This document shows positions 14,032 to 36,443 of a stretch of 36,443 nt of DNA, in pieces. A program made the translations under genes and the position numbers. A model generated the notes under the pieces. It was not told the DNA's origin, did no database searches, and saw only the letters and a program-made list of their open reading frames with translations. Location: the IMG/VR virus record IMGVR_UViG_3300006810_000150, positions 1-36,443 of that record; one strand, given 5' to 3'. This DNA is from a virus. Positions within the stretch are counted from its first letter, which is position 1. The number at the start of each line of letters is the position of its first letter.

Positions 14032-14194
14032 TTACGTCCTCAATAGGTGACTTGACAAAACTGTTTGCAACTTCTCTTCGTTGCATCTCTAGTTTGCTAC
14101 CCACTCTATCTGCCATATCGTTTTGAAAAATTCTCTCTGCCTCAATGTTGTTTCCTGAGACAATTGCGTTTAGTAAATCTTTTGTGGTGTTCAT
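14018..14194 (-). CDS. 67: gp67-like prohead core protein (58 residues)
   Basis: A short gene of 58 codons starts at ATG 14194, overlapping the stop of gene 20 as ATGA, with AAGGAG 7 bases upstream. Its core, LLNAIVSGNNIEAERIF followed by QNDMADRV and VANSFV, matches T4 gp67 (LIEAIKSNDLVAARKLF and onward). The C-terminal end is acidic (EDVNEED), a short version of the acidic tail of T4 gp67 (80 residues). gp67 is a component of the prohead core, located between gene 20 and gene 68 in T4, exactly as here. Confidence 0.85.
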   Translation of the reverse strand: MNTTKDLLNAIVSGNNIEAERIFQNDMADRVGSKLEMQRREVANSFVKSPIEDVNEED

Positions 14195-15843: not shown

Positions 15844-15882
15844 AATATCTCCTACTAGTATCTTCTATTTAGTAGGTTTAAA

Positions 15883-16416
15883 TTAGAAGTTCACGCCTGA
15901 AGCTTCAAAGTGTTGATATCTCCATGTTACTTCAAATTCTTCAATCGCATCTGCTGTGTCAGATGTTAATTCGATTGCAGAAATTGTTGTTGGCCATGCA
16001 CTTCTAAAGATATATGTCTTTAGCACTGTATCGTCACGATCAAGTTGTTCCACTGTGAGGTCCGTCTGATAATCAGCAGGAGCAACAACACCAGTGTTAT
16101 TTGCAAGATCGTTGATACCGTTACTCCAACGTTCCATCGCATTACGGATCATGAAGTCTGTGTCATTCATAAACGTAGTCGTCCATGCTTCATCAAACGT
16201 TCTATCACCAGCAATGTAAATCTGCCTACCTCTGAATGGGATTTGAATTTCCCCAAGAGTTTGTGCAGGAAGGTTGGAGGCACGAACTAGAAATGAGGTT
16301 CTACGAACATCAAGTCCAATTGCAATGCCGGGTGGTGGAGTGATCGTTACACGAAACTGGTTCGCACGAGCACCACCACCGATTAGGTTTGCCTTGAAAT
16401 CGTCAATATTAGCCAT
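15883..16416 (-). CDS. 19: gp19 tail tube protein
   Basis: The 177-residue protein matches T4 gp19 (163 residues), with RANQFRVTITPP, NLPAQTLGEIQIPFRGRQI, the conserved AGDRTFDEAWTTTFMND and the C-terminal FEVTWRYQHFE. It stacks as hexameric rings inside the sheath. It lies two bases after gene 18. Confidence 0.96.
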   Translation of the reverse strand: MANIDDFKANLIGGGARANQFRVTITPPPGIAIGLDVRRTSFLVRASNLPAQTLGEIQIPFRGRQIYIAGDRTFDEAWTTTFMNDTDFMIRNAMERWSNGINDLANNTGVVAPADYQTDLTVEQLDRDDTVLKTYIFRSAWPTTISAIELTSDTADAIEEFEVTWRYQHFEASGVNF

Positions 16417-21659: not shown

Positions 21660-22059
21660 TTCTACCCTTTAACATTTTCTGAAGTTCTGCGGTGCTACCA
21701 ACAAAGAGTGCATTTGTCACGTTCTTTGGTCCGTGATCTGGAACCTCTTTGAGTTTCTTCATCTTTTCTTGAAGATCACCTAGTTTTTCGGTAACGTCTG
21801 CGACCTGTTTGATAAGATTTCCAGCAACCTCGTATGCTCTTGGGTGCTCACTCTCTCTTGCGAGTTCCAGTATTCCATCAATCGCATCTTGACCACGTTC
21901 AACGAGGTTATAAAAGTTTTGCCTCTGATACTCGTAGTCATTGTCTATGTCATCTCCGTGAGAAGGAACAACAACTTCTTTCTTCTCTACAACGACCTCT
22001 TGGGGGACAACTTTATCAATAACTCCAAGTGCCTTTTCAATTTCAATTTCTTTACTCAT
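21652..22059 (-). CDS. 16: gp16 terminase small subunit
   Basis: The 135-residue protein lies before gp17, as in T4, and has the helical, coiled-coil core of small terminases (YNLVERGQDAIDGILELA and DVTEKLGDLQEKMKKLKEV). It binds viral DNA and regulates gp17. I chose ATG 22059, preceded by AGGTGAAG; an in-frame GTG lies two codons upstream. Confidence 0.88.
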   Translation of the reverse strand: MSKEIEIEKALGVIDKVVPQEVVVEKKEVVVPSHGDDIDNDYEYQRQNFYNLVERGQDAIDGILELARESEHPRAYEVAGNLIKQVADVTEKLGDLQEKMKKLKEVPDHGPKNVTNALFVGSTAELQKMLKGRND

Positions 22060-22852
22060 CTTCACCTGTCACTGGATTAAAATTCTTCGCATCCTCAAAG
22101 AATGAGGTTGTCTCATTAAATCCAAAATCATCATCAGCATCAGCACTTGTTGGGTTTGGTGTAACCGTGTATCTCTGTTCTCTCTTAGGTGATTGATCAG
22201 GTAGGTCTGTGTACTGATCAACCTGTACAGTCTTAATAACCTTACTAGAGGTAACAGGACCGTAGAGATGGAACTTAGCAGTAAAAGAGAGAGTGTAGAT
22301 AATGGCTCTACGGTTTGCAAAGTCTCCCTGATAATCGTCTTCGTAACCGATACTGTTTAGAACAACAGGGACATCTCTCTTAATACGCATGTCTGTGTTG
22401 TCATTTAGTGTGATTGTGTAATCAGGTTGAAAGTATGGTAGAATTTGTTCTACAATTTGCAACGCATCATCTGACTGTTTTGAGAGAATGTAGAGTTCAA
22501 AGTCAATATTATATGGGACAGGCATATACTGCGTGTCCAACTGGTCAGAGTTTGCACCCTTCACCTTCTTGAACTTCTGCACACGTTGTAGTTTGCGTGA
22601 TGGGTCATATGTCATACCAGTAATCTCAAACCCAATACGAGGTAGAGTTACAGCGGTCTGATTAGACAAAGATGGATCATCATTCAGACGGACAAGGAAC
22701 TTCTGCCGTGGACCATACGCAAGAGGAACCTTCATAGACTGTTGAATAGTTCCACTGTTGTCCTTACGAACAAGATGAATGTCATTGAAAAGTGAGCCGA
22801 AAGAAACGACTACCTTACGAATGGTTTCATGGTAGAATTGTTGTCCCAACAT
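22052..22852 (-). CDS. 15: gp15 tail completion and sheath stabiliser
   Basis: The 266-residue protein matches T4 gp15 (272): an N terminus with FYHETIRKVVVSFGSLFNDI, then VPLAYGPRQKFLVRL, the highly conserved IVEQILPYFQPDYTITL and IKRDVPVVLNSI. It caps the tail and joins it to the neck. Overlaps gene 16 by 8 bases. Confidence 0.96.
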   Translation of the reverse strand: MLGQQFYHETIRKVVVSFGSLFNDIHLVRKDNSGTIQQSMKVPLAYGPRQKFLVRLNDDPSLSNQTAVTLPRIGFEITGMTYDPSRKLQRVQKFKKVKGANSDQLDTQYMPVPYNIDFELYILSKQSDDALQIVEQILPYFQPDYTITLNDNTDMRIKRDVPVVLNSIGYEDDYQGDFANRRAIIYTLSFTAKFHLYGPVTSSKVIKTVQVDQYTDLPDQSPKREQRYTVTPNPTSADADDDFGFNETTSFFEDAKNFNPVTGEDE

Positions 22853-23745
22853 TACGATACTTCTCCTGCATCACCGAATGGATTTGATTCGCTGAAGTCT
22901 AGGATAGTGTCATCCAATTCATCGAATAGTTCATTCTGATTGACCTTATCTGTCACTTGGTCACCTACTATATAGTCCTCATTGATAAAGTATGATGCAT
23001 CACCAGTATCAGCAGCGTTCTCAAGTAATAATGCACCACTGTCATCTTCAAGTGTGAACTGATAAGTGAGTGCATCCATTGAGTCTGCATCTTCGATTGC
23101 ATCAATTGCAGCAATGTCTGTGTCGAGAACTTCTGAACCATAATCAAATGTGCGACAACGCATTTTGTATACGGGGTTGTTGTCGAGTTGATGAAATGGC
23201 TCATCGTGGTCAACGAAGTTAATCTCAAACAGTTTACCAAGAATGGGATGGAAGATTGCATCACCTTCTTGTGGTCTATCTGCGTCTGTAGAAGATGCCT
23301 CTGAGATTAGATACCCACTCTCGTATGAAGATGGAATGTCAACCTCGTCACTGTCCAGTGTTCCATCCTCAAGTAGAATAGAACCTGTGAGTGTATCTGT
23401 ACCACTCTCAATCGTGAACTGTTTTGTGATGTCTCTAAATCTGCTCTTACTGACAACGAAGGTGACTTCACTGAGGTTCTGCAAACCAAACTGAGTCATC
23501 AACTCTCGTTCACCAGCATACCCACCACCAGAGTTCTCAACATACATCTCAATCTTTGCCTGAGTGTTGAACTTGGATAGAGAGTCTTCACCAAGGAACG
23601 TGTCCTCAGCCACAAGTGTGCGGTCAAGATAATAAACATCATGACCGTAAATCTGAATTGCCTCTGCAATCAAATCTGCATACAGATTTTTTTCTGTAGT
23701 AAGTGCATGTTGATTGCTTGTGTGAAATGCTTTATTGACTGCCAT
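22852..23745 (-). CDS. 14: gp14 neck protein
   Basis: The 297-residue protein is the T4-type neck protein gp14 (256 in T4), with LYADLIAEAIQIYGHDVYYL near the start and LMTQFGLQNLSEVTFVVSK, PQEGDAIFHP and LGKLFEINFVDHDEPFHQL in the core. It is somewhat longer than T4 gp14, with an acidic C terminus. It lies between gp13 and gp15 in the T4 order. Confidence 0.95.
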   Translation of the reverse strand: MAVNKAFHTSNQHALTTEKNLYADLIAEAIQIYGHDVYYLDRTLVAEDTFLGEDSLSKFNTQAKIEMYVENSGGGYAGERELMTQFGLQNLSEVTFVVSKSRFRDITKQFTIESGTDTLTGSILLEDGTLDSDEVDIPSSYESGYLISEASSTDADRPQEGDAIFHPILGKLFEINFVDHDEPFHQLDNNPVYKMRCRTFDYGSEVLDTDIAAIDAIEDADSMDALTYQFTLEDDSGALLLENAADTGDASYFINEDYIVGDQVTDKVNQNELFDELDDTILDFSESNPFGDAGEVS

Positions 23746-23747
23746 GT

Positions 23748-24569
23748 TTATCCAATCATGTAGTTAACTGGTAGTTCGAACGCAAGTTTCATCTCTTCTT
23801 CAAGTTTATTGATTTCTTCTTGTGCTTGGTTATAAATTGTCTCACCATTCATTGTGACACCACCCAGCATCTCTACACCACTAAACTTGGAAAGGTTTGC
23901 ACCCCACTGTCTCTTAATAAGAGCAGTTGCATATCTCTTAAGATACATGTCGTTGTATAGGTCTGTGAATGTGCCGGGATCAAGTTTACGATAACAATCA
24001 ATAATAATATAATCAACGTCAGCAGTTACCTTATTCTCCCAATCCATGTCAATATACAAACGGTTTTGATGTTGATTAAAACGAAGTGGTGTCTCCCCAA
24101 CAAGAATATGTTCTAGTAGGTCTAGGTTATCCATAGCCATCTGATACTGAATAACAGATGTAGATGAGAGGTCAAACAAATCATTTAGTCGTAACTGATA
24201 ACGTAGATCGAACATACTTGAACCACCACCTGTATCACTAAATGGAAAAACTTGCATTACTGCAAGTACTGAATCGGGAACAGGAATCCAGTTCTTACCT
24301 TCGTACCACACGGCAGTTGTTGAACCATCAACATCAGTTACAGTTGATAGTGTCTCGTTAGACCTTGCCCGTGTAACGTCTGCGGTTGTGATAAGATGTT
24401 TAAGATACATCCTCTCACATCCATCGTAGTGATACTCTGCAAAGAATTGTAGTGCCTCGTCAATACGGTCATCAACTTGGTCATCTGACACGTTAATGTC
24501 GATAACCCCATATCCAAGGTTCCGTAGACAATAATTCTTGAAATCTGCTCTGGTAGAAGGTATGGCCAT
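23748..24569 (-). CDS. 13: gp13 neck protein
   Basis: The 273-residue protein resembles T4 gp13 (309): FKNYCLRNLGYGVIDINVSD, VDDRIDEALQFFAEYHYDG and LIKRQWGANLSKFSGVEM followed by NGETIYNQAQEEI. It forms the neck ring on the portal with gp14. GGAA-type ribosome binding site before the ATG, and a perfect late promoter 20 bases upstream. Confidence 0.95.
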   Translation of the reverse strand: MAIPSTRADFKNYCLRNLGYGVIDINVSDDQVDDRIDEALQFFAEYHYDGCERMYLKHLITTADVTRARSNETLSTVTDVDGSTTAVWYEGKNWIPVPDSVLAVMQVFPFSDTGGGSSMFDLRYQLRLNDLFDLSSTSVIQYQMAMDNLDLLEHILVGETPLRFNQHQNRLYIDMDWENKVTADVDYIIIDCYRKLDPGTFTDLYNDMYLKRYATALIKRQWGANLSKFSGVEMLGGVTMNGETIYNQAQEEINKLEEEMKLAFELPVNYMIG

Positions 24570-24589
24570 AGGAAGTTCCTTTTTTTATA

Positions 24590-24597
24590 TATTTATA
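24590..24597 (-). promoter_or_regulatory. T4-type late promoter for the neck and terminase genes
   Basis: A perfect TATAAATA on the minus strand overlaps the stop of the acetyltransferase gene and lies 20 bases before gene 13. It can drive 13-14-15-16-17. Confidence 0.8.
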
Positions 24598-25096
24598 AGT
24601 TTTTGATTGCAAGGTAATTAGGACCATACTCCAAATCATCATCTTCCCAGCCTGGAACCCTATGAAATCCCACACCCTCATATGCAATCATTGCAGAAGC
24701 TCTAGGTAACGACCAAATTAAGTCACATTCTTCTCTTTTTGCTTGGTTAATTGTGTGTTCTAACAGAATTGTAGACAATCTATGACCTCTATATTCTGGT
24801 AAAACATAGATTCCCCTAGAACGATATGTCTTCTCACCAGTTCTGAACCCACTGTTCACACCAACAATCTTGTTTGTCTTCTCCTCTTTCATTGCAAAGA
24901 AAGTCGGTTTTGACCAATCGAATATTGACCAATCCTTTGAGATAGATACATTACCGTAATTTTCTAACAATCGTCTATCGTATACAATTGCGTTCAGAGG
25001 TTCTATATCTGTCTTACGATCAGGCCAAAGACCCTCTTTCCAAAAATCATAAATCTCTTCAAATGTGCTTTCAACACATACATAACTATTAATCAT
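24593..25096 (-). CDS. GNAT-family acetyltransferase
   Basis: The 167-residue protein has the acetyl-CoA binding motif of GNAT enzymes, IYVLPEYRGHRLSTILLEH (96-114), with the following helix and the C-terminal strand. It could acetylate a protein, tRNA, sugar or drug. It is upstream of the neck genes, and its ATG is only 14 bases from the divergent sulfotransferase-like gene. Its coding region ends on a late promoter. Confidence 0.87.
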   Translation of the reverse strand: MINSYVCVESTFEEIYDFWKEGLWPDRKTDIEPLNAIVYDRRLLENYGNVSISKDWSIFDWSKPTFFAMKEEKTNKIVGVNSGFRTGEKTYRSRGIYVLPEYRGHRLSTILLEHTINQAKREECDLIWSLPRASAMIAYEGVGFHRVPGWEDDDLEYGPNYLAIKNL

Positions 25097-25110
25097 ACAC
25101 TATATATAAC
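25097..25110. promoter_or_regulatory. Palindromic TATATATA between divergent genes
   Basis: The only 14 bases between two divergent ATGs contain TATATATA (25101-25108), which differs by one base from the late octamer and reads the same on both strands. It lies 2 bases before the plus-strand ATG and 4 before the minus-strand ATG. It may act as a two-way late-type promoter; this is unproven. Confidence 0.35.
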
Positions 25111-25728
25111 ATGAGAATTGGTATGGTGTCTACATCCCGAGCAGGATGTACATATATGAGACGTTATATTTGCAATCGTTACAACCTTAAAGACTCTGGG
25201 TCTTGGTTGAAACATAACTCATATAAAGATATTGAGGATGAGGAATGGACATACGTTCCTCACATACTCAAAGTTTTAGTTCACTACATTCCACTAAAAG
25301 ATAGAAAGACTGTCCTATCAGACTTCGATAAAATCTGGTTGTGGCGTGAGGATAGTGTACGACAGTTTCTTAGTCATGTAACGAGACTGAGAACAGGGGT
25401 GAATCATGTATATGGTGATGAGATGCCTGTCATTGGTGACAGAACGCTCGTCGCCTATCGTTCAGAGTTTGACAGATTTATGCATCGTCAGAAACAGTTC
25501 TGGGAGTTGTATTACGAACTAGGTTTCAAGAAGAATGAACCACTGATAAAGTTTGAAGATTTTGTGGAAGACCCCAATAGTATTTGCAAAATGTTAGAGG
25601 ATTGGTTTTATATGGAGTTTGGTTTTAATTTTGATTTACCAGACCAGGCTCTACCAAGAAGAATTGACATAGACTATGCAACAAAGTATACTAACTACGA
25701 AGAGGTTGTGGAGTGGTTTAATGAATAA
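25111..25728 (+). CDS. Sulfotransferase-like protein A
   Basis: The 205-residue protein has a P-loop-like start VSTSRAGCTYMRRYI (6-20), similar to the PAPS-binding loop of sulfotransferases, and a later WLWREDSVRQFLSHVT in place of the 3'-phosphate motif. It ends in YTNYEEVVEWFNE. It is on the plus strand, opposite to the neck genes, and overlaps the next gene by 8 bases. I infer transfer of a sulfate or related group, but the match is weaker than for the protein at 19471-20016. Confidence 0.65.
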   Translation: MRIGMVSTSRAGCTYMRRYICNRYNLKDSGSWLKHNSYKDIEDEEWTYVPHILKVLVHYIPLKDRKTVLSDFDKIWLWREDSVRQFLSHVTRLRTGVNHVYGDEMPVIGDRTLVAYRSEFDRFMHRQKQFWELYYELGFKKNEPLIKFEDFVEDPNSICKMLEDWFYMEFGFNFDLPDQALPRRIDIDYATKYTNYEEVVEWFNE

Positions 25729-26416
25729 CTATTGTTTGGTTTGCACACCACGATCAGGATCATATTATGTTCTTTTTCATTTAGCAAAAGAAAGAAACCT
25801 TATCAGTGGGAAAGAGTGGTATGGTAGAATGAAAAAAGTTCATTACGATGAGAACTTGCGAACAAGTCCTATCACCATTGACTACACTGTAAACGAACAT
25901 TTATTGACCAATCACGAAATTGAAAAACGTAGGATGTGGCTTAGTGGTAGAGACAATTTTATAATAAAATGTATGCCACACCAATTGTCTAATACTATAG
26001 AAAATAGAAATATATCAACAGAAGATAGAATAACAATTGCTGTTGATATACTGTCAGATTACAAATTAATATGGCTAACAAATAAGAACAAGATTTCTCA
26101 ATTCTGTTTTAGGTTCATAGCACAAGAGACAAGCAGAAAAGATTACAAAGGCACTAACAGAGAATACTCTGATTATGATGTAGATAAAAGAAAAACACCA
26201 CCACCAAAATCTTTTACAGCAACAAAAAAAGAATTTAATAGGTTTATGAAAATAGAAGAATTCTTTAATGGTGTTCGTTTACATTTTCCTGATTGTGAAG
26301 AAATTATATACGAAGACTTTATAAAAGATAAAGATATCATACCCAACCCCGACTATACAAAAATTATGACAAACTACGATGAGATATGTGAATGGTTTAC
26401 GACTTACTCGACATGA
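25721..26416 (+). CDS. Sulfotransferase-like protein B
   Basis: This 231-residue protein opens with CTPRSGSYYVLFHLA, a clear sulfotransferase phosphosulfate loop (PRSGS). The ATG at 25721 overlaps the previous stop by 8 bases and has GGAG upstream. Near its end, MTNYDEICEWF repeats the C-terminal motif of protein A (TNYEEVVEWF), so the two look like old tandem copies. Sampled lines are AT-rich (16 and 19 G/C of 60). The last residues TTYST run into the start of the kinase gene, suggesting a rearranged junction. Confidence 0.7.
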   Translation: MNNYCLVCTPRSGSYYVLFHLAKERNLISGKEWYGRMKKVHYDENLRTSPITIDYTVNEHLLTNHEIEKRRMWLSGRDNFIIKCMPHQLSNTIENRNISTEDRITIAVDILSDYKLIWLTNKNKISQFCFRFIAQETSRKDYKGTNREYSDYDVDKRKTPPPKSFTATKKEFNRFMKIEEFFNGVRLHFPDCEEIIYEDFIKDKDIIPNPDYTKIMTNYDEICEWFTTYST

Positions 26417-26952
26417 TGACAGGTGAGTGGATCGAAGGTGAGACACTTACAAGAGACAACTACGGTGAAAACTTTATTCGTCAACTTGCAGACTTTATGG
26501 CTGAGGTCCACACTACAAAAGTACCTAACGATAGAGTAGTTGATATCAAAGGCGTTGTTTGTGGATTAAAACAAGTTGATAGTTTTGTTCACGATTGTTT
26601 GGTAGATTGGAACACCACTCTTCGATACAATCTAAATCAGTCTGTATTCCTGCATGGAGACATTTGGGCAGAAAACGTGATAGTAGAAGACGGAAATCTA
26701 AAAGGACTAATTGATTGGGAACACTGTGCATACGGTGATCCACACTGGGATTTTAGAATGATACGTCGATGGATAGGGTGGGATGGTCTTGACAAACTTC
26801 TGTTCCTATACAATGCAAGTACAGGACACAAATGCAAACGAGAGTACATAGAGATGCTTGATAAAATATCTCTATGTAACTCTCGTCAGATTAGGGGTTT
26901 TGAAGAGAACGTATTCTGTGAATACATTCGCAACTGGCCAAGAAATATTTAA
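26392..26952 (+). CDS. APH/choline-kinase-like protein, N-lobe truncated
   Basis: The 186-residue protein carries the catalytic motifs of aminoglycoside and choline kinases: FLHGDIWAENV with HGD at 88-90 and N95, then LIDWEHCAYGDPHWDF with D108. In full-length relatives these lie about 190 residues in, so roughly 100 residues of the ATP-binding N lobe are missing. Start at 26392, or at ATG 26413, which overlaps the previous stop as ATGA. It could be an inactive remnant or rely on another protein. It ends head-to-head with the minus-strand gene at 26949, the two stops overlapping in TTTAA. Confidence 0.72.
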   Translation: MVYDLLDMMTGEWIEGETLTRDNYGENFIRQLADFMAEVHTTKVPNDRVVDIKGVVCGLKQVDSFVHDCLVDWNTTLRYNLNQSVFLHGDIWAENVIVEDGNLKGLIDWEHCAYGDPHWDFRMIRRWIGWDGLDKLLFLYNASTGHKCKREYIEMLDKISLCNSRQIRGFEENVFCEYIRNWPRNI

Positions 26953-27251
26953 ACGTTAAATTCAGCCTCTCTGGTAATATTATGTTCAACAAAATATAAA
27001 GTTCTAGGATTGATATAATCACTGATTACAGTACTGTCTGCGTTAAATTCAGCTAGTGATGACTCTGAGTCCCATTCGAAAAGAATAGTTCTGGTTAATC
27101 CATCATCACTATCTGTAAAAGTTGAACTTATTATCTTACCAGTATCGATATATTGAGATTGTAAATACGAATTAAAATCAGTCTCTCGTGCCACATACCA
27201 ATCACTATCTGTACTTGTTCTAGTGTAGGTAACTCTTGTTCTATAACTCAT
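26949..27251 (-). CDS. Small phage protein of unknown function
   Basis: I do not recognise this 100-residue protein. It begins MSYRTRVTYTRTSTDSDWYV and is rich in Thr, Ser, Asp and beta-strand patterns (GLTRTILFEWDSE), which fits a small structural protein. An 11-codon reading frame at 32449-32484 begins with a similar MAYRVTSVTNT. GGGGA precedes the ATG. It is the last gene of the accessory block on the minus strand. Confidence 0.65.
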   Translation of the reverse strand: MSYRTRVTYTRTSTDSDWYVARETDFNSYLQSQYIDTGKIISSTFTDSDDGLTRTILFEWDSESSLAEFNADSTVISDYINPRTLYFVEHNITREAEFNV

Positions 27252-27316
27252 ATGTTTTTCCCCAATACTTAAGGTGGTGGAACATTAAAAGGCCACCGAA
27301 AAATATTTAACCACTT

Positions 27317-27322
27317 ATTATA
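27317..27322 (-). promoter_or_regulatory. Possible extended -10 promoter
   Basis: On the minus strand TGGTATAAT forms an extended -10 just past the dctP-like stop, about 65 bases before the small gene at 26949-27251. No good -35 is seen. The stretch 27252-27326 also has a GGTGG/CCACC hairpin (27272-27296) without a U run. Confidence 0.3.
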
Positions 27323-27326
27323 CCAC

Positions 27327-28286
27327 TTAGTGTTTTGTACTTCTTTCGTTTAACATTGCATCCACTAAGCCGGGTGTAAAGTAATCCTTATACATTTCGT
27401 ATACTGGAGCACTAATCTCCTTAAACTTAGCAATTTCCTCTGCACTCATCTTTACAATTTCGACCTTCTCATCTGCTAACTGACCTTGAATACGAGGTTC
27501 ATCAGCAACAGAGTGACGCCGTTCCATGCGTGATGCCTTAAATGCAGCATCTGCCATGATCTTCTTTGTATCTTCATCGAACTGGTCCATCCAATCCTTG
27601 TTAGCAATAATGCTTGTCAAGAAAAGACTGTGACCTGTATCGTTGACATACTTAAAGTCTTTATGATGATCAAGAGGAAGAACACGAACAAATGTTGACT
27701 CACCAGCTTCAATCTCACCACGTTTTGCATATTCACCCATTTCTTCAAGAGTGATATGTTCATGTGGATTTGCACCAAGCAACTTAAACATATCAATTGC
27801 TACAGGTGATCGACTTGTGCGTACTTCCTTACCCTTCCAATCATCAACGTTAGGAGCACGGAAGTTTGCAGGAACAATGCGATATCCACCACTGTATGTG
27901 AAACCCATTGCCCGTGTGTTAGAAGACTTCTCAATACTTGCAAGAAGTGATGTTCCAATCTCTCCTTCTAGAACACGATCAGCGTGATCATGATCTTCAA
28001 ACAAGAAAGGTAAGTCTAGAGCATGTAGGTCTTTATTGTAGTCTGCAAGCCATGTTGTGTAAATATGACTCATCTCAATAGTACCATTGTCTAGTAGTTC
28101 CATTAAGTCTGCCTTGGTAATACGCTTACCATCGTTATACTTGTTGGTATAATCAGTTAGACTAAGAATTTCTACCTCAAAGGCACCATCAGTTCTTTGA
28201 TTTACCTCATCAGCAAAACACTCAGCAACTGCAACGAAATAATCAATGGGTTCGTGTGCAATTACCCACTTCACTTTATGTGACAT
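27327..28286 (-). CDS. dctP: DctP-family TRAP solute-binding protein without signal peptide
   Basis: The 319-residue protein is a clear DctP-family binding protein: ALDLPFLFEDHDHADRVLEG (89-108), then YSGGYRIVPANFRAPNVDDW, the arginine in WKGKEVRTSRSPV that in the family contacts the carboxylate, and FKLLGANPHEHITLEEM. It begins MSHKVKWVIAHEP without any signal peptide. An in-frame TAG seven codons upstream and a strong GGAGG before the ATG rule out a longer N terminus. It may thus stay in the cytoplasm or enter the virion. It has its own late promoter 36 bases upstream. Confidence 0.88.
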   Translation of the reverse strand: MSHKVKWVIAHEPIDYFVAVAECFADEVNQRTDGAFEVEILSLTDYTNKYNDGKRITKADLMELLDNGTIEMSHIYTTWLADYNKDLHALDLPFLFEDHDHADRVLEGEIGTSLLASIEKSSNTRAMGFTYSGGYRIVPANFRAPNVDDWKGKEVRTSRSPVAIDMFKLLGANPHEHITLEEMGEYAKRGEIEAGESTFVRVLPLDHHKDFKYVNDTGHSLFLTSIIANKDWMDQFDEDTKKIMADAAFKASRMERRHSVADEPRIQGQLADEKVEIVKMSAEEIAKFKEISAPVYEMYKDYFTPGLVDAMLNERSTKH

Positions 28287-28322
28287 TTTATGACCTCCTA
28301 GATTCTGCTAGATGTTTGATAC

Positions 28323-28330
28323 TATTTATA
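28323..28330 (-). promoter_or_regulatory. T4-type late promoter for the signal-less dctP
   Basis: A perfect TATAAATA on the minus strand lies 36 bases before the ATG at 28286 and is followed by a GGAGG ribosome binding site. Confidence 0.85.
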
Positions 28331-28334
28331 CTAA

Positions 28335-29423
28335 TTACTTCTTTGGACCCCAATAATGATCCGCTGCATAATTGTATGGTGTGAATGCAACGTTCTTGTA
28401 TGGAACAACCTTTGCTGCCCATGCTCTCTGTGATTCAAGAACCTTCTTAAACCAAGGGTTCTTTGCACTTTCTTCCTTGAACATCTGATCAATAGTTGCA
28501 AGTTCTGCCCGAAGAACATCAGGTGGTGTCTGCATAACCTTAACACCATGCTCCTTAATCATTCTTGCAAGAGCCTGACCGTTCTCTGACTGCACCCAAG
28601 TCAACCAATGTAGATATGACTCGTATGCGGCAGAACGAATTGCAGTCTGTTGAGACTTTGTAAGAGAACGCCAAACTGCTCCATTGATGAGTAGATCACC
28701 AGTATTGGAATGTTCATGCAGTGAGTTTAGGTAGTAGTACTTCCATAGTGTAGGAAATCCTAGACGTTCATCTTCTAGACCACCCACAAACTCTGCACAG
28801 TTAATGACACCCTTCTGACCAGCAGCAAGGATTTCACCACCAGGCATACCGATTGTCTGCATACCCATACGAGCATAAAGTTCTACGTTAATACCTGTCT
28901 GACGACACTTAAAGTTCTTAAGGTCTGCAAGGTCTTTGATAGGACGATGAAACCACCCAAGAGGTTGGTTCTGTGTTGGCATAGAAGGAATGGCAACAAC
29001 GTCAAGTTTAAGTTGGTTCTGATAGAAGTCATTGTACATCTCAAGACCACCACCGTGGAACATCCAACCAAGGAAGTCAATACCATCCATACCGAATGGA
29101 CCACCTAGAGGCGAATTGAAAAGACCAAGGGTCTTATCCTTACCCACCCAATAATAACTCTGTGTCCATGCACCATCAACTGCACCAGATGCAGTTGCAT
29201 CTAGAACTTGGAATGGTGGAACCAATGCACCAGAGGGCTTGATTTCCATCTTAACTGCACCATCAGTTAGAGTGAAAACTCTGTCTGCAATAAACTGTGC
29301 TTGTTCGTTGAAGGTAGAGATTGCGCCATAGGAACTCGCAACCTTAATGACTGTCTGATCCTTTGCATGGGCAGAACCCATAGCAAGGAGTGAAACCGCG
29401 AGTGCGGCAAGATACTTCTTCAT
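28335..29423 (-). CDS. dctP: TRAP transporter periplasmic binding protein DctP
   Basis: The 362-residue protein begins with a standard signal peptide (MKKYLAALAVSLLAMGSAHA, cleavage after AHA at residue 20). It resembles the larger DctP type seen with mannitol/chloroaromatic- and 2-oxo-acid-type TRAP systems such as TakP: CAEFVGGLEDERLGF, LWKYYYLNSLHEHS and LINGAVWRSLTKSQQTAI. It captures a carboxylate in the periplasm and passes it to DctQM. Exact substrate cannot be told. GAGGAG precedes the ATG. The promoter TATAAATA lies inside the upstream dctM gene. Confidence 0.93.
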   Translation of the reverse strand: MKKYLAALAVSLLAMGSAHAKDQTVIKVASSYGAISTFNEQAQFIADRVFTLTDGAVKMEIKPSGALVPPFQVLDATASGAVDGAWTQSYYWVGKDKTLGLFNSPLGGPFGMDGIDFLGWMFHGGGLEMYNDFYQNQLKLDVVAIPSMPTQNQPLGWFHRPIKDLADLKNFKCRQTGINVELYARMGMQTIGMPGGEILAAGQKGVINCAEFVGGLEDERLGFPTLWKYYYLNSLHEHSNTGDLLINGAVWRSLTKSQQTAIRSAAYESYLHWLTWVQSENGQALARMIKEHGVKVMQTPPDVLRAELATIDQMFKEESAKNPWFKKVLESQRAWAAKVVPYKNVAFTPYNYAADHYWGPKK

Positions 29424-29439
29424 GATTTACTCCTCATTG

Positions 29440-30750
29440 TTACTTAATCATATTGTCAAAAGAAGGAAAAGTAATCTCTCCTTCGATTTTATTTATAACG
29501 CCTGAATTATCGGTTTTCAAGTATTCTGGAAACCAAGTTGCAATACCCGGCGCAATGAAAAGTATTACAACTGCTAAAATTTGTATCCACATAAAAGGTA
29601 TCATGGATTTGAATATCATACCCAAGTCCCACTGGGGAACTACCTGTTTCAGATAGTAACTAGTTAGTGCAACTGGTGGAGTGAGGTATGCAGTCTGTAT
29701 AACAATGCCTAGACAGACTGCGAACCACAACATATCTACACCTGACGATACGAGAACAGGGAGAAAGATTGGTAGAAAAACAAGAACAACCACTGGCCAC
29801 TCAAACGGCCAACCTAATAGATGACAGAGAACAAGAATACACCCAACTAATGCCCATGATGGTATAGGTAGTGCGTTAAGTGCATCTACGATGATCGTGT
29901 CCCCACCAAGTGCAGTAAAGACTGCACCAAATATCATTGATGCAAGTGCAAGTAACATAACAACTGAAGTAGTGTCACATGTCTTTATTAATGCATCTTT
30001 GAGATACAACTTGCCATTCATCAGTGCAAGTCCCATTGCACCAAACGCACCGAAGGCGGCCGCCTCCGTTGATGTTGCAAGTCCAAATAACATTGACCCA
30101 ATGACCAGAGCAATGAGGACTGCAAGGGGTATGACACCAATCAACACTCTAACGTACTGTGGTTTCTCATCACTCTTAGGTCTAGGATGAAACAGACAAT
30201 ACACAACGTACATCGCAGCAATCATTAGGCCCGGCACTAGAGATGCAGCATACAAATCTACAATGTTGATGTTCATGGTTGGTGCCATGACAATCAAAGG
30301 GACAGATGGGGGAATAACAATCATAGAACCACCCCCTGCAATAACACCAGCAGTAAGTTTGGGATCGTATCCCAATCTCATCATGTGTGGGGCAGCCATG
30401 ATACCCAACAAAGTAACAGATGCACCAACAACACCAGTTGCGAGACTAATAAGAACTGCAATGATAATAACAACAATGTATAAGTTACCCACCACTGTCT
30501 TGAGACTATCAAAGAGTTTGTCCACTAACCCTGCACGTTCACAGATATACCCCATGAAGATAAACATGGGGATTGCCATCCAAATCTGATTTGACAGACC
30601 CCCAAGCAAATTGTAGTAGACAAGTCCAAAAACGTTGTCTCCCATTGCAACGTATCCAAAACCAAATGCAAGGAATAACAACGTAAATGCAACGGGGATA
30701 CCAACGAAGATTCCTGCAATCATTGTGCATAACATTACAATTGCCATCAT
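29440..30750 (-). CDS. dctM: TRAP transporter large permease DctM
   Basis: The 436-residue membrane protein has the many hydrophobic segments (about 12) of DctM, with the family signatures GASVTLLGIMAAPHMMRLGY and IAGGGSMIVIPPSVPLIVMA (ion- and substrate-path motifs) in the first half, and the matching second half near LLGWPFEWPVVVLVFLPIFL. It is the transport subunit that drives uptake with sodium or proton gradients. Full length for the family, so not degraded. The ATG overlaps the dctQ stop (ATGATG). Confidence 0.95.
   Translation of the reverse strand: MMAIVMLCTMIAGIFVGIPVAFTLLFLAFGFGYVAMGDNVFGLVYYNLLGGLSNQIWMAIPMFIFMGYICERAGLVDKLFDSLKTVVGNLYIVVIIIAVLISLATGVVGASVTLLGIMAAPHMMRLGYDPKLTAGVIAGGGSMIVIPPSVPLIVMAPTMNINIVDLYAASLVPGLMIAAMYVVYCLFHPRPKSDEKPQYVRVLIGVIPLAVLIALVIGSMLFGLATSTEAAAFGAFGAMGLALMNGKLYLKDALIKTCDTTSVVMLLALASMIFGAVFTALGGDTIIVDALNALPIPSWALVGCILVLCHLLGWPFEWPVVVLVFLPIFLPVLVSSGVDMLWFAVCLGIVIQTAYLTPPVALTSYYLKQVVPQWDLGMIFKSMIPFMWIQILAVVILFIAPGIATWFPEYLKTDNSGVINKIEGEITFPSFDNMIK
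29490..29497 (-). promoter_or_regulatory. T4-type late promoter inside the end of dctM
   Basis: A perfect TATAAATA on the minus strand lies within the last 20 codons of dctM, 66 bases before the dctP ATG at 29423. It would give separate late expression of dctP above the level of the permease genes. Confidence 0.7.
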
Positions 30751-31199
30751 CGTAGATTACTCACACACTCACGAACCTTTAGAACTCCTTGATATAACAG
30801 TAGAAGTAGTCCAAGGGTCACACCAATCTTCATGGGCCAGATAACGAGTTGCAACATTGTATCACTTGATCTCTCGTTCATAAGAATAGACTTGTATGTA
30901 TCCATTGCAGAAACATACGCAAGGATACCAAAAGCAGGGAAGAACATTAGGTATCCCACGAGGTCAATGATATTTTTTGTGCGTTTAGAGAAGTTTTTGA
31001 AGTATATGTCACTTCTTATGTGAGCATCATTTGCCATACTGTAACTTGCACCCAACATGACTAGGATTGCATACAGTTGCCATGACACATCGACTGCGAA
31101 ATCAAATCGCAAGTCAAAGAAGTATCTACCAAGAACATTGATAACAATCAACACTACTATCGCAAGGGTGAACCATGCGTAGTAATTCACAAGTTTCAT
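30747..31199 (-). CDS. dctQ: TRAP transporter small permease DctQ
   Basis: The 150-residue protein has four predicted membrane helices (about 4-26, 42-62, 80-105, 118-142) and the usual layout of DctQ, with NVLGRYFFDLRFDFAVDVSWQL between the first two. It supports DctM in the membrane. The ATG at 31199 shares a base with the TGA of the preceding asparagine-synthase-like gene, so it is translated with it. The upstream GTG at 31217 is less likely. Confidence 0.9.
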   Translation of the reverse strand: MKLVNYYAWFTLAIVVLIVINVLGRYFFDLRFDFAVDVSWQLYAILVMLGASYSMANDAHIRSDIYFKNFSKRTKNIIDLVGYLMFFPAFGILAYVSAMDTYKSILMNERSSDTMLQLVIWPMKIGVTLGLLLLLYQGVLKVRECVSNLR

Positions 31200-32443
31200 C
31201 ACAGTTGTTTTTTCCACTCATCCCATACTGGTTTATAATATATATCCCACCTGTCATACAAGTTTATTTCTGGATCATATCCAAATCCATAGTCTTCACC
31301 AGTGAAAACTTCTTTGTGATAGGAGCCATCACTCATTATCAAAGAGTTTATAAATTGACGAGAATACGATTCTCTTGAATCAACACCTATCTCTTCACGC
31401 ATTGGATATGTATCAGGAAAACTCATATACTTAGTTTTGTTGTCTCGATATTCTGTATTCCCATCATAATCAAATATAAAATCTTTTGCTGGACCCTTGT
31501 ATGATTTATAATCACCCCTATGTTTTAGATCGTGGTTAACAATACTCCATTTTTGTATTTCTGGAAAATTGTAAAAACCAATAATATTATAATATCTAGA
31601 AGCATTCTTCAATTCTCTGTGTGGTGTAAGATCATTCCACTGCCACTTACAGGAGAAGGCAACCCACCAAATAAAATCAAAGGGATTGCGTATTTCTACA
31701 GGAGATGCTGAAATGTGCCATTCACAAAATTCTATAAATTTATTTTGTGTTTTCTTATCGGCATCCCGAAAATTATATCTAGTATCCTCATACTTAAATA
31801 TATCTGTCCAATGACTTTCTGTTTTATTCATGTGTTCTTTGATTGCAAAGGAACCCCACACAGGATCACCGGGCTCACCTGTTACATTGATAGAACCATC
31901 CGTAAAGTTTGGTTCAAAATCAAATATGGTTTCCATATTATTGGATTGAAACTTGAGGTCATCTATTTTTTGGAGTAATGACCAAAAGTGTGGATTTTCT
32001 TCTATACAGGGTTGACCATAGTAAATCGTAAGTTCGTGTTCTGGTTTCTTTGTCCGTAGAAATGCAACAAGTGCAGCAGTAGAGTCGATACCACCAGACC
32101 ACCATAAACGGACAGGTCTATTCATGTTCCAAATTTCTTCTGCTCTTTCAAGTAGAACTTGTTCTATAGTTTTATTCCAACTAGGCTCTACTTCTGGTAT
32201 TGGTTCAAAATGAAAATTCAAATAGTTTAGATTTCTATTTGTCCTGTCCATAGAAAAACCACAGTTGGCCAACCAACCAAAAGAACCAATATAATTATCA
32301 AACCACTCACCTAATTGCATAGGATGTTTGGTTAAAAAATCTGCATATAGGGGATTGTTACGTCCAATATCCAAAGGATCGTGATACTTCAACCAAAGAC
32401 CAAGTGAATTGCCTTTAGTTGCAATAACTTTCAAATTGTTCAT
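31199..32443 (-). CDS. Asparagine-synthase-like PP-loop protein C
   Basis: The 414-residue protein has the PP-loop SGGIDS at 116-121 within a Rossmann-like ATP-binding domain, as in the synthetase part of asparagine synthetase, but no glutaminase domain. It shares with its two neighbours the order of motifs: PP loop, then GEPGDPVWGS, then HDLKHRGDY and AKDFIFDYDGNTEYRDNKTK. PP-loop enzymes of this group adenylate a carboxyl group and transfer an amine. Substrate unknown. It is tied to the transporter by the overlap with dctQ. An 11-codon frame lies before it. Confidence 0.78.
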   Translation of the reverse strand: MNNLKVIATKGNSLGLWLKYHDPLDIGRNNPLYADFLTKHPMQLGEWFDNYIGSFGWLANCGFSMDRTNRNLNYLNFHFEPIPEVEPSWNKTIEQVLLERAEEIWNMNRPVRLWWSGGIDSTAALVAFLRTKKPEHELTIYYGQPCIEENPHFWSLLQKIDDLKFQSNNMETIFDFEPNFTDGSINVTGEPGDPVWGSFAIKEHMNKTESHWTDIFKYEDTRYNFRDADKKTQNKFIEFCEWHISASPVEIRNPFDFIWWVAFSCKWQWNDLTPHRELKNASRYYNIIGFYNFPEIQKWSIVNHDLKHRGDYKSYKGPAKDFIFDYDGNTEYRDNKTKYMSFPDTYPMREEIGVDSRESYSRQFINSLIMSDGSYHKEVFTGEDYGFGYDPEINLYDRWDIYYKPVWDEWKKQL

Positions 32444-32448
32444 AATTA

Positions 32449-32484
32449 TTAGGTATTGGTTACGGAAGTAACTCTATAGGCCAT
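32449..32484 (-). CDS. Eleven-codon leader reading frame
   Basis: The minus strand has AGGAG, six bases, then ATG and the frame MAYRVTSVTNT, ending in TAA 5 bases before the next gene's ATG. Its ribosome binding site is better than that of the next gene. A late-promoter-like CATAAATA lies upstream. The first residues resemble the start of the protein at 26949-27251 (MSYRTRVTYT), so it could be a remnant of such a gene or a leader peptide that feeds ribosomes into the synthase-like gene. Confidence 0.4.
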   Translation of the reverse strand: MAYRVTSVTNT

Positions 32485-32500
32485 TTTATTCTCCTGATAT

Positions 32501-32508
32501 TATTTATG
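32501..32508 (-). promoter_or_regulatory. Late-promoter-like CATAAATA
   Basis: One base off TATAAATA on the minus strand, overlapping the stop of the gene at 32504. Transcription would begin near 32496, just before the AGGAG of the 11-codon frame, and lead into the synthase-like and dctQM genes. Confidence 0.45.
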
Positions 32509-33622
32509 TAGTTGCAATATAACGAGTCCAATCATATTCATAAAAGTTTTCCCTATTAATGATACTCCCATCATCTGTTATTGCAATAACTCGTAAAAAA
32601 TTTTGTTTAAATTTTACCTTATTAGATTTTACAAAACGCATTCTGAACTCACTTACTCCCTTTTTCATGTCATAAGATATGTCTTTATTTTTAGTAAAAT
32701 CATAGACAAAATCTCTCAGGGGCATTTTACATTTGAGATAATGTTTTTGACTTTCAGCATCATCATTGTATCCAGCATTAAGATGCCAAACATTTTTATG
32801 TCCCCAACCCTCATGAGTTAAATCATAATACACCATCTCATTAGATAACACTTTATTGATAGCAAACTTCTCAATCTCAGGATGATGAAAAAAAGACTTT
32901 TGATTATCTACATCTATTTTATCACCTTGATAATTAGAAATAAATCTGAAGATACGGTTGCAAGAAACAAATCTTCTTTTTGTATTCCACTGATTAAATA
33001 AATTGGTATCCGTATTTTCAAATGTTGTCAGAGTTCCTTTAGCACCAAAGAGAGGATCAGCCTCTGAACCAGCAACAAAAACATGCTGATCTGGTTTTGC
33101 TAAACTATATGTATTGGACAACGTTTCCGTTTCATCTAGCACATAATCAATTCTTCCCCTAATAATTTTATCAAACAAATATGGAGTTTCTGGTGGTCCA
33201 CCCATAATAACACGAAGTTGTTTGTGTAACCCAAGTTCGTTAAATGCAATTAACATTAAGTTACTGTCTAAACCACCAGACCAAAATAAATCTATAGTCT
33301 TTCCTTTGTCTGCAATGGACTTTGCACTTTCAAATACACATTCTGAAAATAATTTTTGTGGCCATTCTTGAAATGGTATCCATTTAATATTTGGAGTTGT
33401 GTTATAATATAAATTAATTTTTCTTTCACGATCAATAAGATGTTGATATGATGCAACTCTTGTTCCATAAGAGTTCATCCCACCTTCCCACTGAATTTGT
33501 TTTTCTTTTAACGTGGTGTTATTAAATTTATCAACAAGGTCTGGAGCATTATCCATTAACCATTTTTTCATCATAACATTGAAATCATAATTCCACCAAA
33601 CTAATTCATTTTTTACATTCAT
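32504..33622 (-). CDS. Asparagine-synthase-like PP-loop protein B
   Basis: The 372-residue protein has the PP-loop SGGLDS at 115-120, then AGSEADPLFGAKG, HEGWGHKN and RDFVYDFTKNKDISYDMKKG, in the same order as in proteins A and C. Its long N terminus (about 110 residues) is not a recognisable glutaminase. The gene is AT-rich (13 of 60 bases G/C in the line from 32581), unlike the structural genes. It overlaps the end of protein A by 17 bases. Likely a duplicated and diverged copy. Confidence 0.75.
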   Translation of the reverse strand: MNVKNELVWWNYDFNVMMKKWLMDNAPDLVDKFNNTTLKEKQIQWEGGMNSYGTRVASYQHLIDRERKINLYYNTTPNIKWIPFQEWPQKLFSECVFESAKSIADKGKTIDLFWSGGLDSNLMLIAFNELGLHKQLRVIMGGPPETPYLFDKIIRGRIDYVLDETETLSNTYSLAKPDQHVFVAGSEADPLFGAKGTLTTFENTDTNLFNQWNTKRRFVSCNRIFRFISNYQGDKIDVDNQKSFFHHPEIEKFAINKVLSNEMVYYDLTHEGWGHKNVWHLNAGYNDDAESQKHYLKCKMPLRDFVYDFTKNKDISYDMKKGVSEFRMRFVKSNKVKFKQNFLRVIAITDDGSIINRENFYEYDWTRYIATT

Positions 33623-34643
33623 TTAAAATGTCCTCTGGAATAACATCATCACGCCTCCAGAGTTTTCCGTTGTCTAATAACAACTTTGGTCGTCTGTTAC
33701 TTTTGTAACGTGTTAACCAAAAATTATCATCAAAGAGTTTCAGTATGGATGGTTCTTTAGTTTTATTAATTTGATACTCTTTATCACCTGTAAAATTATA
33801 TATGAAATCTTTTGCCGGTTGTTTGTATGATAACCAAGTATTTTGATGTTTTAGATGATGGTAGTGCATGGACCACTTTTGAAAATCTTCTGTGTTAAAA
33901 AAACTATAGTGTTTATGAACATCTTCCCCATCATTCTGAAAATAAAATACAGGAATGACTCTATCTAAAAATGTCCACTTAAAACAAAAACTAATCCACC
34001 AGTAGATATCAAAAACGGTTCTAATTTCAATAGGACACTTTTCTATATGCATCTCTAACAGACTAGAGATTCTATACCTACTAGGTTTTTCTATAGGCAC
34101 ATTCCATAAGTTCTCAAAATATAAAATACTATCCCACGGATCATTCATCATGTCTTCATACTTCTTAACAGAGTCGGTTCCAAAGATAGGATCAGCACAT
34201 TCACCAGAAACAAATGTTACGTCTTGTTTTAGATAATGCGGATCAAAATAATCTACACTAGAAGAAAGAAATGGGTCTGAGAACTCCTTAACTGTTTCAT
34301 ACAGAGCAGGAAACTCGTCTATAGACTGTTGAGAGTACCTAACACACAACTCTCCGTCACTAGGCATTGTCTCTCGCAACGACAGAAACACAACACTACT
34401 GTCAATACCACCTGACCAAAATACTGTTATTGGTTTACCATAACTCCACAACTCTTCGGCTCTAGAAATGCAACATTCATCCCATGACTTTGCATCTGAG
34501 ATTTCTTGAGGTATAGGATCATACTTCCAGTTAAACTCGTTTAGTGTGCCTGTACGATCAACAGGCATCCAACACGCAACTATGTTTCCAAGTCGTTCTA
34601 AATCTTTTTCACCAGATGGTTCATACCATATTACTTTTGCCAT
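33606..34643 (-). CDS. Asparagine-synthase-like PP-loop protein A
   Basis: The 345-residue protein has SGGIDS at 77-82, SGECADPIFGTDS in the middle, HHLKHQNTW and then AKDFIYNFTGDKEYQINKTK. The last is nearly the same as in protein C. No glutaminase domain. I chose ATG 34643; the frame opens upstream with TTG inside the cytidylyltransferase-like gene. The start overlaps that gene's end by 23 bases, so it belongs to the same operon. Function as in the other two: likely ATP-dependent amide or amine formation on an unknown carboxylate. Confidence 0.78.
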   Translation of the reverse strand: MAKVIWYEPSGEKDLERLGNIVACWMPVDRTGTLNEFNWKYDPIPQEISDAKSWDECCISRAEELWSYGKPITVFWSGGIDSSVVFLSLRETMPSDGELCVRYSQQSIDEFPALYETVKEFSDPFLSSSVDYFDPHYLKQDVTFVSGECADPIFGTDSVKKYEDMMNDPWDSILYFENLWNVPIEKPSRYRISSLLEMHIEKCPIEIRTVFDIYWWISFCFKWTFLDRVIPVFYFQNDGEDVHKHYSFFNTEDFQKWSMHYHHLKHQNTWLSYKQPAKDFIYNFTGDKEYQINKTKEPSILKLFDDNFWLTRYKSNRRPKLLLDNGKLWRRDDVIPEDILNECKK

Positions 34644-34962
34644 TTCGTATCTCTGTTGCAGAAATCTTTTCAATTTCTTCACCAAGATGTTCCTGTTCAA
34701 TCTTATACCCAACGTCTCTGCCGTATGTAATGTTTACAATATTCGGAACAGTCATTATAATATAATCTCGGTCATACTCATACCCATGAGTTTTTAAGTC
34801 TGCAATAACATCAGATTGATCAAACCAACCCTCACCAGTATCTCTTACCATAATAGCAACCTGACCTGTCTTTGCATGAGATTTCTTAAAAAGTTCTCTA
34901 TGTCCTTCGTGCCAAGGTTGATATCTCCCCAACATCTGCACAGTGGGTTTTTGTCTATCCAT
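34621..34962 (-). CDS. Cytidylyltransferase-like nucleotidyltransferase
   Basis: The 113-residue protein has GRYQPWHEGH (12-21), the HxGH-type nucleotide-binding motif of cytidylyl- and adenylyltransferases, and ISATEIR near the C terminus, the second motif of the family. It activates a small molecule by joining it to CMP or AMP. ATG 34962 follows AGGTGG by about 10 bases and overlaps the kinase gene by 8. The protein is short but has both motifs. Confidence 0.85.
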   Translation of the reverse strand: MDRQKPTVQMLGRYQPWHEGHRELFKKSHAKTGQVAIMVRDTGEGWFDQSDVIADLKTHGYEYDRDYIIMTVPNIVNITYGRDVGYKIEQEHLGEEIEKISATEIRNGKSNMV

Positions 34963-35377
34963 TTTTCTGTATCCACCTTTCAACAACCTCAAGTAGTTGT
35001 TTATCTGTATCATCAAACCACCCACTCACATGATAATCACATGTTGGTGGTTTTTCGAACATTGCATTCGTATCTTCAAATCTTCCTTTATCTATCGTGT
35101 CCATCCATACTGTAAAATCTGGTGCAAACTCTAGTCTTGTTTTCTCAGTAGGACAAACAAAGTCTGCAACGGCAATCCTACCTGACATAACCACGCCATC
35201 TGCAAGGTGACGCATTCTTAAGGATTGCCTCATTCTTCCTTCGGGTGTGAAGTCCCAATCGTCGTAATGTGTTCTAACTTTGTCTGCGTTTATCCAGACA
35301 CCATCAATTAGTTTTGCAAAAGGTTCTGCAAGTGTAGACTTACCAGAACCAGGCAAACCAAATATTAATACTTTCAT
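34955..35377 (-). CDS. APS-kinase-like P-loop kinase
   Basis: The 140-residue protein has the P-loop GLPGSGKST (7-15) and INADKVRTHYDDWDF, RMRQSLRMRHLAD and ADFVCPTEKTR, as in phage adenylylsulfate-kinase-like proteins. True CysC makes PAPS, the donor for sulfotransferases, of which three candidates are in this window. Other small kinases share these motifs, so the substrate is uncertain. The start follows the glycosyltransferase stop with no gap (TAAATG). Confidence 0.78.
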   Translation of the reverse strand: MKVLIFGLPGSGKSTLAEPFAKLIDGVWINADKVRTHYDDWDFTPEGRMRQSLRMRHLADGVVMSGRIAVADFVCPTEKTRLEFAPDFTVWMDTIDKGRFEDTNAMFEKPPTCDYHVSGWFDDTDKQLLEVVERWIQKNG

Positions 35378-36073
35378 TTATACAAAATTCCTATAGTCTT
35401 TCCATTCATGTGGTTTGTTTAGTCGATTGGTAAAATGTACATACTTAATGTCTGGGTGAAATTCTCCACCCATGTATATGTAGTCATTACCTGTGAGTTC
35501 TTCATACTTCTGTGTCATCTTATAGTTCCATCGGTTGACACTGCCAGAAACTACATCATCACTGACAACCCATCGTGTGAACCATTCATTTGGTAATACC
35601 ACAAGGTCTAACTGTTCTTTAACACTATCCTCTACGAAATACTGTTCTCCGTTCACTGGTCCTGTTGTTGTTCCGTTCTCAATGTAAAACTTCTGCCAGT
35701 AATGAATGTCACTCATAAACTTGTCGTAGATATATTGACAGTCCTTCGGATAGTATTTGAAGAACCCACCGTTGATACGATACTCATCGGCATCGTTTCT
35801 CCACCATCCCGGCATCGCAACAAACTGTCCTCGTTGAATCGGGTAGTCAAAGATTTTCTCATAGTCGTTGATAAGAAGAACATCAATGTCCATCACACAG
35901 ATGGGTTCGTCTGTCTCCAGCTGCATACCCCACATCTTATTCCACTGTAGAGTTACCTTCTCATGGTACGGCTCTCGTATCCAGATGATGTTATGCTTCG
36001 ATAACTTTTTCTCTAGGTATTCTTCGTATTCTGGACCGTACTTATCACCGATACGAACTGCTACGATATCCAT
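35378..36073 (-). CDS. Glycosyltransferase-like protein (GT-A type)
   Basis: The 231-residue protein resembles small nucleotide-sugar transferases: VMDIDVLLIND with a DxD at 62-64 for metal and sugar nucleotide binding, later RINGGFFKYYPKD and GEQYFVEDSV, and a final HFTNRLNKPHEWKDY. It could add a sugar to a virion or host structure. ATG 36073 preferred over an upstream GTG at 36085. It overlaps the end of the previous gene by 13 bases. Confidence 0.65.
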   Translation of the reverse strand: MDIVAVRIGDKYGPEYEEYLEKKLSKHNIIWIREPYHEKVTLQWNKMWGMQLETDEPICVMDIDVLLINDYEKIFDYPIQRGQFVAMPGWWRNDADEYRINGGFFKYYPKDCQYIYDKFMSDIHYWQKFYIENGTTTGPVNGEQYFVEDSVKEQLDLVVLPNEWFTRWVVSDDVVSGSVNRWNYKMTQKYEELTGNDYIYMGGEFHPDIKYVHFTNRLNKPHEWKDYRNFV

Positions 36074-36438
36074 CGTCTGTCCCACTGTTTAGTTGGTTTA
36101 GTCCCTTGAAACCAACACTGTTTTGCATATGATAATGTCTCATGTAATTTATAGTATGAGTTGACAAGTTTATCGAGAGTGTTATAAGCATGACACACAT
36201 GATAACTAAAGATGTTACTGGTATCAAAGAATACAACCTTATCCTTAACAACCTCTTTTATTCTATCGTAGTCCGCATTGATTAAGTCCATCAACCAGTA
36301 TTCTATATCACATCGGTCGTACATCTCTGCCTGCATTTGACGTAACTCTTCGAAGTCACCCATTGCCTTTGCTCTTTCATGTGCAGGAGCATTACCAATA
36401 TTATCAACAAAATTTTTATTTGAGATATTCTTTAACAT
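36061..36438 (-). CDS. Conserved phage protein, possibly cut by the window edge
   Basis: I do not recognise a named family. The 125 visible residues include YWLMDLINADYDRI, VVFFDTSNIFSYHVCHAYNT and a final GTKPTKQWDRRWIS. The frame is open to the window edge, so the ATG at 36438 may be internal and the part shown may be the C-terminal end of a longer protein. The phrase FFDTSNIFSYH resembles the end of SAM-methyltransferase-like folds, which is only a hint. It overlaps the glycosyltransferase-like gene by 13 bases. Confidence 0.55.
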   Translation of the reverse strand: MLKNISNKNFVDNIGNAPAHERAKAMGDFEELRQMQAEMYDRCDIEYWLMDLINADYDRIKEVVKDKVVFFDTSNIFSYHVCHAYNTLDKLVNSYYKLHETLSYAKQCWFQGTKPTKQWDRRWIS

Positions 36439-36443
36439 GTATA

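Follow-up and report, generated by a model that had tools for sequence, protein, structure and literature searches.

The window studied here, a 36,443-nt IMG/VR virus record read on one strand, carries on its minus strand a complete set of TRAP transporter genes. Three asparagine-synthetase-like PP-loop genes are followed by dctQ, dctM, dctP1 and dctP2, and then by a gene for a small 100-aa protein (Table 1). From the last PP-loop gene onward the spacings are -19, -4, 16, 48 and 75 nt, the second of these being the 4-nt overlap of dctQ and dctM, and the small terminal gene possibly lies on the same transcript as dctP2. Ribosome sites (GAGG / GGAGG) precede dctP1 and dctP2, and dctQ has an alternative in-frame ATG start at 31199, the boundary adopted in the first-pass annotation. 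Scans for promoters and terminators gave no excess over shuffled sequence.

Table 1. Genes of the TRAP locus in the window, in order of transcription
Feature	Position	Strand	Evidence and remarks
PP-loop enzyme paralogue (SGGIDS)	33606..34712	-	Asn_synthase PF00733 0.0013, just under cut-off; cluster c14
PP-loop enzyme paralogue (SGGLDS)	32504..33622	-	same cluster c14
Asparagine-synthetase-like PP-loop ATP enzyme, directly upstream in same operon	31199..32443	-	SGGIDS PP-loop; phrog_1550 QueC-like 8e-5
dctQ, small TRAP permease subunit	30747..31217	-	PF04290 2.1e-20, positions 1-129 of 132; GTG start
dctM, large TRAP permease subunit	29440..30750	-	PF06808 7e-54, positions 1-412 of 413
dctP1, TakP-like periplasmic receptor, signal peptide MKKYLAALAVSLLAMGSAHAK	28335..29423	-	PF03480 2e-30
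dctP2, DctP-fold protein without signal peptide	27327..28286	-	PF03480 3e-43
Small 100-aa protein downstream of dctP2	26949..27251	-	75-nt gap; no family match

The Pfam matches of dctQ, dctM, dctP1 and dctP2 all exceed the curated cut-offs and are near full length. Hydropathy gives 10 segments in DctM and three strong segments in DctQ, and the closest solved TRAP large permease to DctM is 7qha_B (9.4e-24). The N-terminus of DctP1 is signal-peptide-like, as in its phage relatives; signal peptides were called throughout from sequence, start position and hydropathy, without a dedicated predictor. These results bear out the first-pass annotation in describing dctQ, dctM and a signal-peptide-bearing dctP as intact and full length within one minus-strand operon, and the family motifs, membrane segments and overlaps that it had reported were seen again. 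The further DctP-family gene that it placed after dctP1 is also present, with a different reading, discussed below.

The setting, as previously supposed, is that of a T4-like phage, here a marine one. On the same strand, downstream of the TRAP genes, come T4-like neck, TerL, sheath, portal, scaffold and major head genes, followed by helicase and gp46/47-like SbcCD nuclease genes, and the TerL of the window is 71% identical to that of Methylophilales phage Melnitz and 68% identical to that of Pelagibacter phage HTVC008M. Positions 21256-36443, spanning both sides of the TRAP genes, recur in a second IMG/VR record (L003/L035, contig 3300025759_007029) at 99.95% identity, and positions 20104-28777 recur in a third (L034) at 99.93%, both without gaps. 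Misassembly, for which the first-pass annotation had allowed, is ruled out by this gap-free reproduction of one or both junctions at 99.9% in two other IMG/VR records. The structural operon also contains three genes on the opposite strand (25111-26952, plus), one of them encoding an APH-type kinase (PF01636, 1.9e-15) and the other two sulfotransferase-like proteins as judged by eye. At 34621-35377 (minus), two overlapping ORFs correspond to positions 3-102 and 124-226 of phrog_10255, a phage kinase/nucleotidyltransferase family that is split or frameshifted here.

The cassette is shared by many viral contigs. DctP1 relatives (76-100% identity; 16 distinct proteins) were found on 25 of them, so that confinement of the homologues to bacterial contigs, which the first-pass annotation had named as a refuting outcome, does not apply; DctM was found directly on 14 viral contigs, and the Q-M-P gene order is kept across cassettes. 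A TerL match is present on 13 of the 25 DctP1 records, and a T4-like major head protein on the large contigs G582, G590, G588 and G577. The 228-kb contig L011/L032 gave no match with the two hallmark profiles (TerL and T4-like head), and its identity as a phage therefore rests on IMG/VR and on its gene content. The cassette occupies at least five genomic positions: before the neck genes (window, L004-L006, L009 and L014), between head-side and tail-side structural genes (L007, L008, L012 and L013), beside TerL (L010), directly after gp43-UvsX-gp41-like replication genes for a DNA polymerase, a RecA/UvsX-like protein and a DnaB-like helicase (L026), and adjoining cold-shock and DctP2 genes (L019-L031). 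Moreover, the phages of G582 (L022) and G588 (L031) share with the window only 31-32% identity in TerL and 32-33% in the head protein, in contrast to 76-78% in DctP1 and 64-65% in DctM. This contrast, together with the changing position, indicates, as far as can be judged from sequence, that the cassette has moved between phages, although the conservation of DctP1 and DctM could partly reflect slow evolution instead of transfer. Among close pairs, dN/dS is 0.06-0.11 for DctP1, 0.05-0.15 for DctM and 0.05-0.18 for DctQ; the three genes are under purifying selection. They are candidate auxiliary metabolic genes, being metabolic genes of host origin that selection has maintained in a verified phage genome.

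The 50,697 named phage records contained no such cassette and only DctPs of about 25% identity, which were set aside as their records look like bacterial contamination. TRAP genes are not mentioned in the main texts of the publications describing the closest phages in culture (Melnitz, PMC9004378; pelagimyophages, PMC7029224) or of ocean and Baltic virus surveys, and in the main texts of the open-access literature we found no description of a phage TRAP cassette or of the DctP2 family. Other transport genes were seen in the same contigs. L010 carries between TerL and the tail sheath (14025-16290, minus) a second phage TRAP system, apparently of the TAXI type, with a DctM-family permease (PF06808, 7.7e-55) and an NMT1/TAXI-like receptor. 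On the 228-kb contig, which also bears a TRAP cassette, a TctA permease (PF01970, 2.6e-26) followed by a TctC-like receptor forms a tripartite tricarboxylate transporter (L032:12460-14594, plus), and a run of five related fatty-acid-desaturase-family genes lies just upstream of the TRAP cassette (L032:3279-7419, plus; the one tested matched PF00487 at 8.6e-17).

A maximum-likelihood phylogeny of 54 receptors unites all 16 phage DctP1 proteins in a single clade with support 100/100. The clade has a stem of 0.97 changes per site and is nested in a TakP-like group of alphaproteobacterial and burkholderial sequences. The nearest bacterial sequences are 50-52% identical among the matches listed and the genome draws, and none in approximately 960 proteobacterial genomes was closer than ~52%; this sampling consisted of a contig scan, for which the phage alignment was combined with TakP and 7ug8, and of the genome draws, and marine donors may be missing from it. 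A contig scan with the phage-only DctP1 alignment, which holds phage-specific patterns, retrieved no matches. Recent capture from a host was rejected because no sequence above ~52% was found among the bacteria sampled. As far as the sampling shows, the cassette would have been taken once from a proteobacterial TakP-like operon. Single genomes do occasionally carry captured host genes, and the TRAP genes could in principle be such passengers, or products of misassembly, with no role in infection. Nevertheless, the repeated junctions, the 16 distinct proteins on 25 viral contigs, the low dN/dS and the long phage-only stem make this explanation very improbable, and we regard it as largely refuted.

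Regarding the substrate, the best PDB matches of DctP1 are TakP (2hzk, 2.7e-45) and the ketoacid-binding protein 7ug8 (3.5e-45). In TakP, Arg177 and Tyr100 are reported to hold pyruvate, while Glu214, Gln156 and Glu240, along with the Trp215 main chain, hold the cation; 2-oxo acids somewhat longer than pyruvate are preferred, and 2-oxoglutarate is not bound (Gonin et al. 2007, PMC1839085). Tyr100, Gln156, Arg177, Glu214 and Glu240 correspond to Y91, Q153, R174, E211 and E237 of DctP1, which are invariant in 12 diverse phage proteins; Trp215, which contributes a main-chain carbonyl, is replaced by Phe, a point against the assignment. DctP1 is thus predicted to be TakP-like and not C4-dicarboxylate-like, and since all the TakP side chains for the cation and the 2-oxo acid are conserved, a pyruvate-like 2-oxo monocarboxylate is the best guess for its substrate. 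The carboxylate uptake proposed in the first-pass annotation is accordingly retained in a narrower form, that of 2-oxo monocarboxylates, and loses any C4-dicarboxylate sense. 2OG-oxygenase-like genes, read by eye, appear in the neighbourhoods of the cassette and made 2-oxoglutarate a tempting candidate, which was set aside on account of the TakP specificity.

A working transporter for another carboxylate, be it lactate, a different short oxo or hydroxy acid or a compound on which the neighbouring AsnB-like enzymes act, is a possibility that we take seriously while considering it distinctly less probable. Indeed, the lactate binder 2zzv / TTHA0766 was also returned in the PDB search with DctP1, and, with related contigs counted as separate, a PP-loop gene is nearby at 17 of 24 TRAP loci, DctP2 at 11 and either at 20, which hints at a dedicated pathway. 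This co-occurrence of TRAP, PP-loop and DctP2 genes is not proof of a shared pathway, as both partners are common in the same phages. Against another substrate stand the five conserved side chains and the fact that both of the best structural matches are ketoacid receptors.

DctP2 presents a different picture. A clear ribosome site precedes its start codon, a TAG occurs in frame eight codons before the ATG, and the polypeptide opens directly with the first beta strand (MSHKVKWVIAHEP). Scanning viral contigs with an alignment gave at least 516 DctP2-related loci, from which the best 80 of 516 were kept. All of the 100 full-length relatives start 1-5 residues before the first strand, none with a hydrophobic leader, and signal-like N-termini are present in nearly all the bacterial relatives found. 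These bacterial relatives are remote: the best one (289 genomes) reached an E-value of 8e-31 with 32% identity, and among 274 genomes none reached 1e-25. DctP2 may have had a single origin, the tree giving 1-2 changes and leaving the divergent types L008/L019/L081 and L110 unplaced. Structure prediction gave DctP2 the entire DctP fold (pLDDT 96, pTM 0.91; 8t9t, E 1.1e-26). Arg156, which corresponds in position to the arginine that usually binds the carboxylate, is retained by 32 of 36 diverse members. A degenerate DctP2 was rejected, dN/dS among close pairs being 0.11-0.19.

The TRAP receptors IseP, SiaP and DctP, with TM-scores of about 0.84-0.88 (best) and ~20% identity, share this full fold. 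In contrast to them, the phage proteins have no signal peptide, are often paired with AsnB-like enzymes and mostly occur without nearby permease genes. DctP2 might instead serve this or a host TRAP transporter as another periplasmic receptor, reaching the periplasm by a route that needs no classical signal or arriving with the virion. Its complete fold, its best matches to TRAP receptors and its position next to the transporter in the window speak for this; many homologues, moreover, lie within tail-fibre regions, making carriage in the virion conceivable. Nevertheless, a signal peptide was found in none of 100 relatives, only 11 of 94 DctP2-bearing loci carry a TRAP cassette, most of the relatives examined have no TRAP genes nearby, and the structure-database matches place DctP1 and DctP2 in separate DctP subfamilies. 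This second-receptor role is therefore unlikely, and the two binding proteins of the first-pass annotation are reduced, on present sequence evidence, to one. From the fold, the location signal and the neighbourhood, we infer that DctP2 is a cytoplasmic carboxylate-binding protein, of a large and apparently undescribed family. Annotation of its relatives does exist, since two short predicted structures in BFVD that look like members automatically received the name 'TRAP receptor'; for the DctP2 family, the automated label 'TRAP transporter receptor' would mislead. Close to DctP2 genes, signal-peptide-bearing TctC/Bug receptors with no permease in view were also seen (cluster c97; L038:4289-5197 and about eight other loci).

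The PP-loop enzymes are frequent companions of DctP2: an immediate same-strand AsnB-like neighbour accompanies 60 of 104 DctP2 genes, related contigs again being counted separately, in more than one arrangement, and many phages have the pair within the tail-fibre region, with a radical-SAM gene close by. SGGxDS is kept in all 40 PP-loop enzymes examined and the family consensus has a GDQLFG-like motif. These are features of asparagine synthetase B and of carbapenam and beta-lactam synthetases, the best fold matches of the enzyme directly upstream of dctQ; for the family member modelled, the closest folds were carbapenam synthetase and asparagine synthetase. These matches are weak (Foldseek E about 3e-4), with poorly modelled ends, and, unlike asparagine synthetase B, the enzyme has no recognisable glutaminase domain. 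In the tail-fibre regions, small proteins with CNCNC-type Cys/Asn repeats lie a few genes from the radical SAM of cluster c80 (cluster c99; L068:6600-6974 and 15 other loci), and together they could form a modified-peptide or fibre-modification cassette.

Taken together, the phage probably encodes a working TRAP transporter, DctQMP1, importing a 2-oxo monocarboxylate, with DctP2 as a separate cytoplasmic carboxylate binder associated with AsnB-like enzymes. DctP1 would be exported to the periplasm during infection, bind pyruvate, 2-oxobutyrate or a similar 2-oxo monocarboxylate together with a cation, and hand it to DctQM for import driven by an ion gradient. During phage replication this would supplement the carbon and amino-acid precursors that the host takes up by itself. 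The cassette, once acquired from the proteobacterial TakP-like operon, would later have passed between phages. DctP2 would stay in the cytoplasm, keep its carboxylate-binding-type pocket and most likely act on an intracellular carboxylate together with the neighbouring asparagine-synthetase-like ATP enzymes, not with the transporter. A role of the transporter during infection is likely, given a complete TRAP system with its periplasmic receptor, the purifying selection and its presence on many phage contigs. More tentatively, phages may have turned the TRAP receptor fold into cytoplasmic DctP2, feeding or holding a carboxylate for an AsnB-like ligase in a small-molecule or virion-modifying pathway, to which some marine phages would have added the complete TRAP importer as a supply.

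The closest known system is TakPQM, the alpha-keto acid TRAP transporter of Rhodobacter sphaeroides (TakP PDB 2hzk/2hzl), which has the same three-part layout and side-chain ligands that are all conserved in DctP1. In contrast to TakPQM, the phage cassette is phage-borne, is only ~30% identical, has the order Q-M-P instead of P-Q-M and forms its own long-branched clade. To our knowledge, most transport genes reported from phages to date encode solitary receptors, PstS being an example, or scattered components of ABC systems. Cyanophage PstS and other phage solute-binding proteins (PMC3686209) are likewise phage-supplied periplasmic receptors able to raise host uptake. However, PstS is a lone receptor for the host ABC transporter, whereas here both permease subunits are included and the transporter is predicted to be ion-driven. 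If a complete importer of receptor and permease has moved among distant phages, lytic phages would be equipping their hosts with a nutrient entry route of their own, one whose substrate can be tested. The DctP2 family, with at least 516 viral DctP-fold loci and no export signal in any member examined, would run counter to the periplasmic location that is the rule for TRAP receptors.
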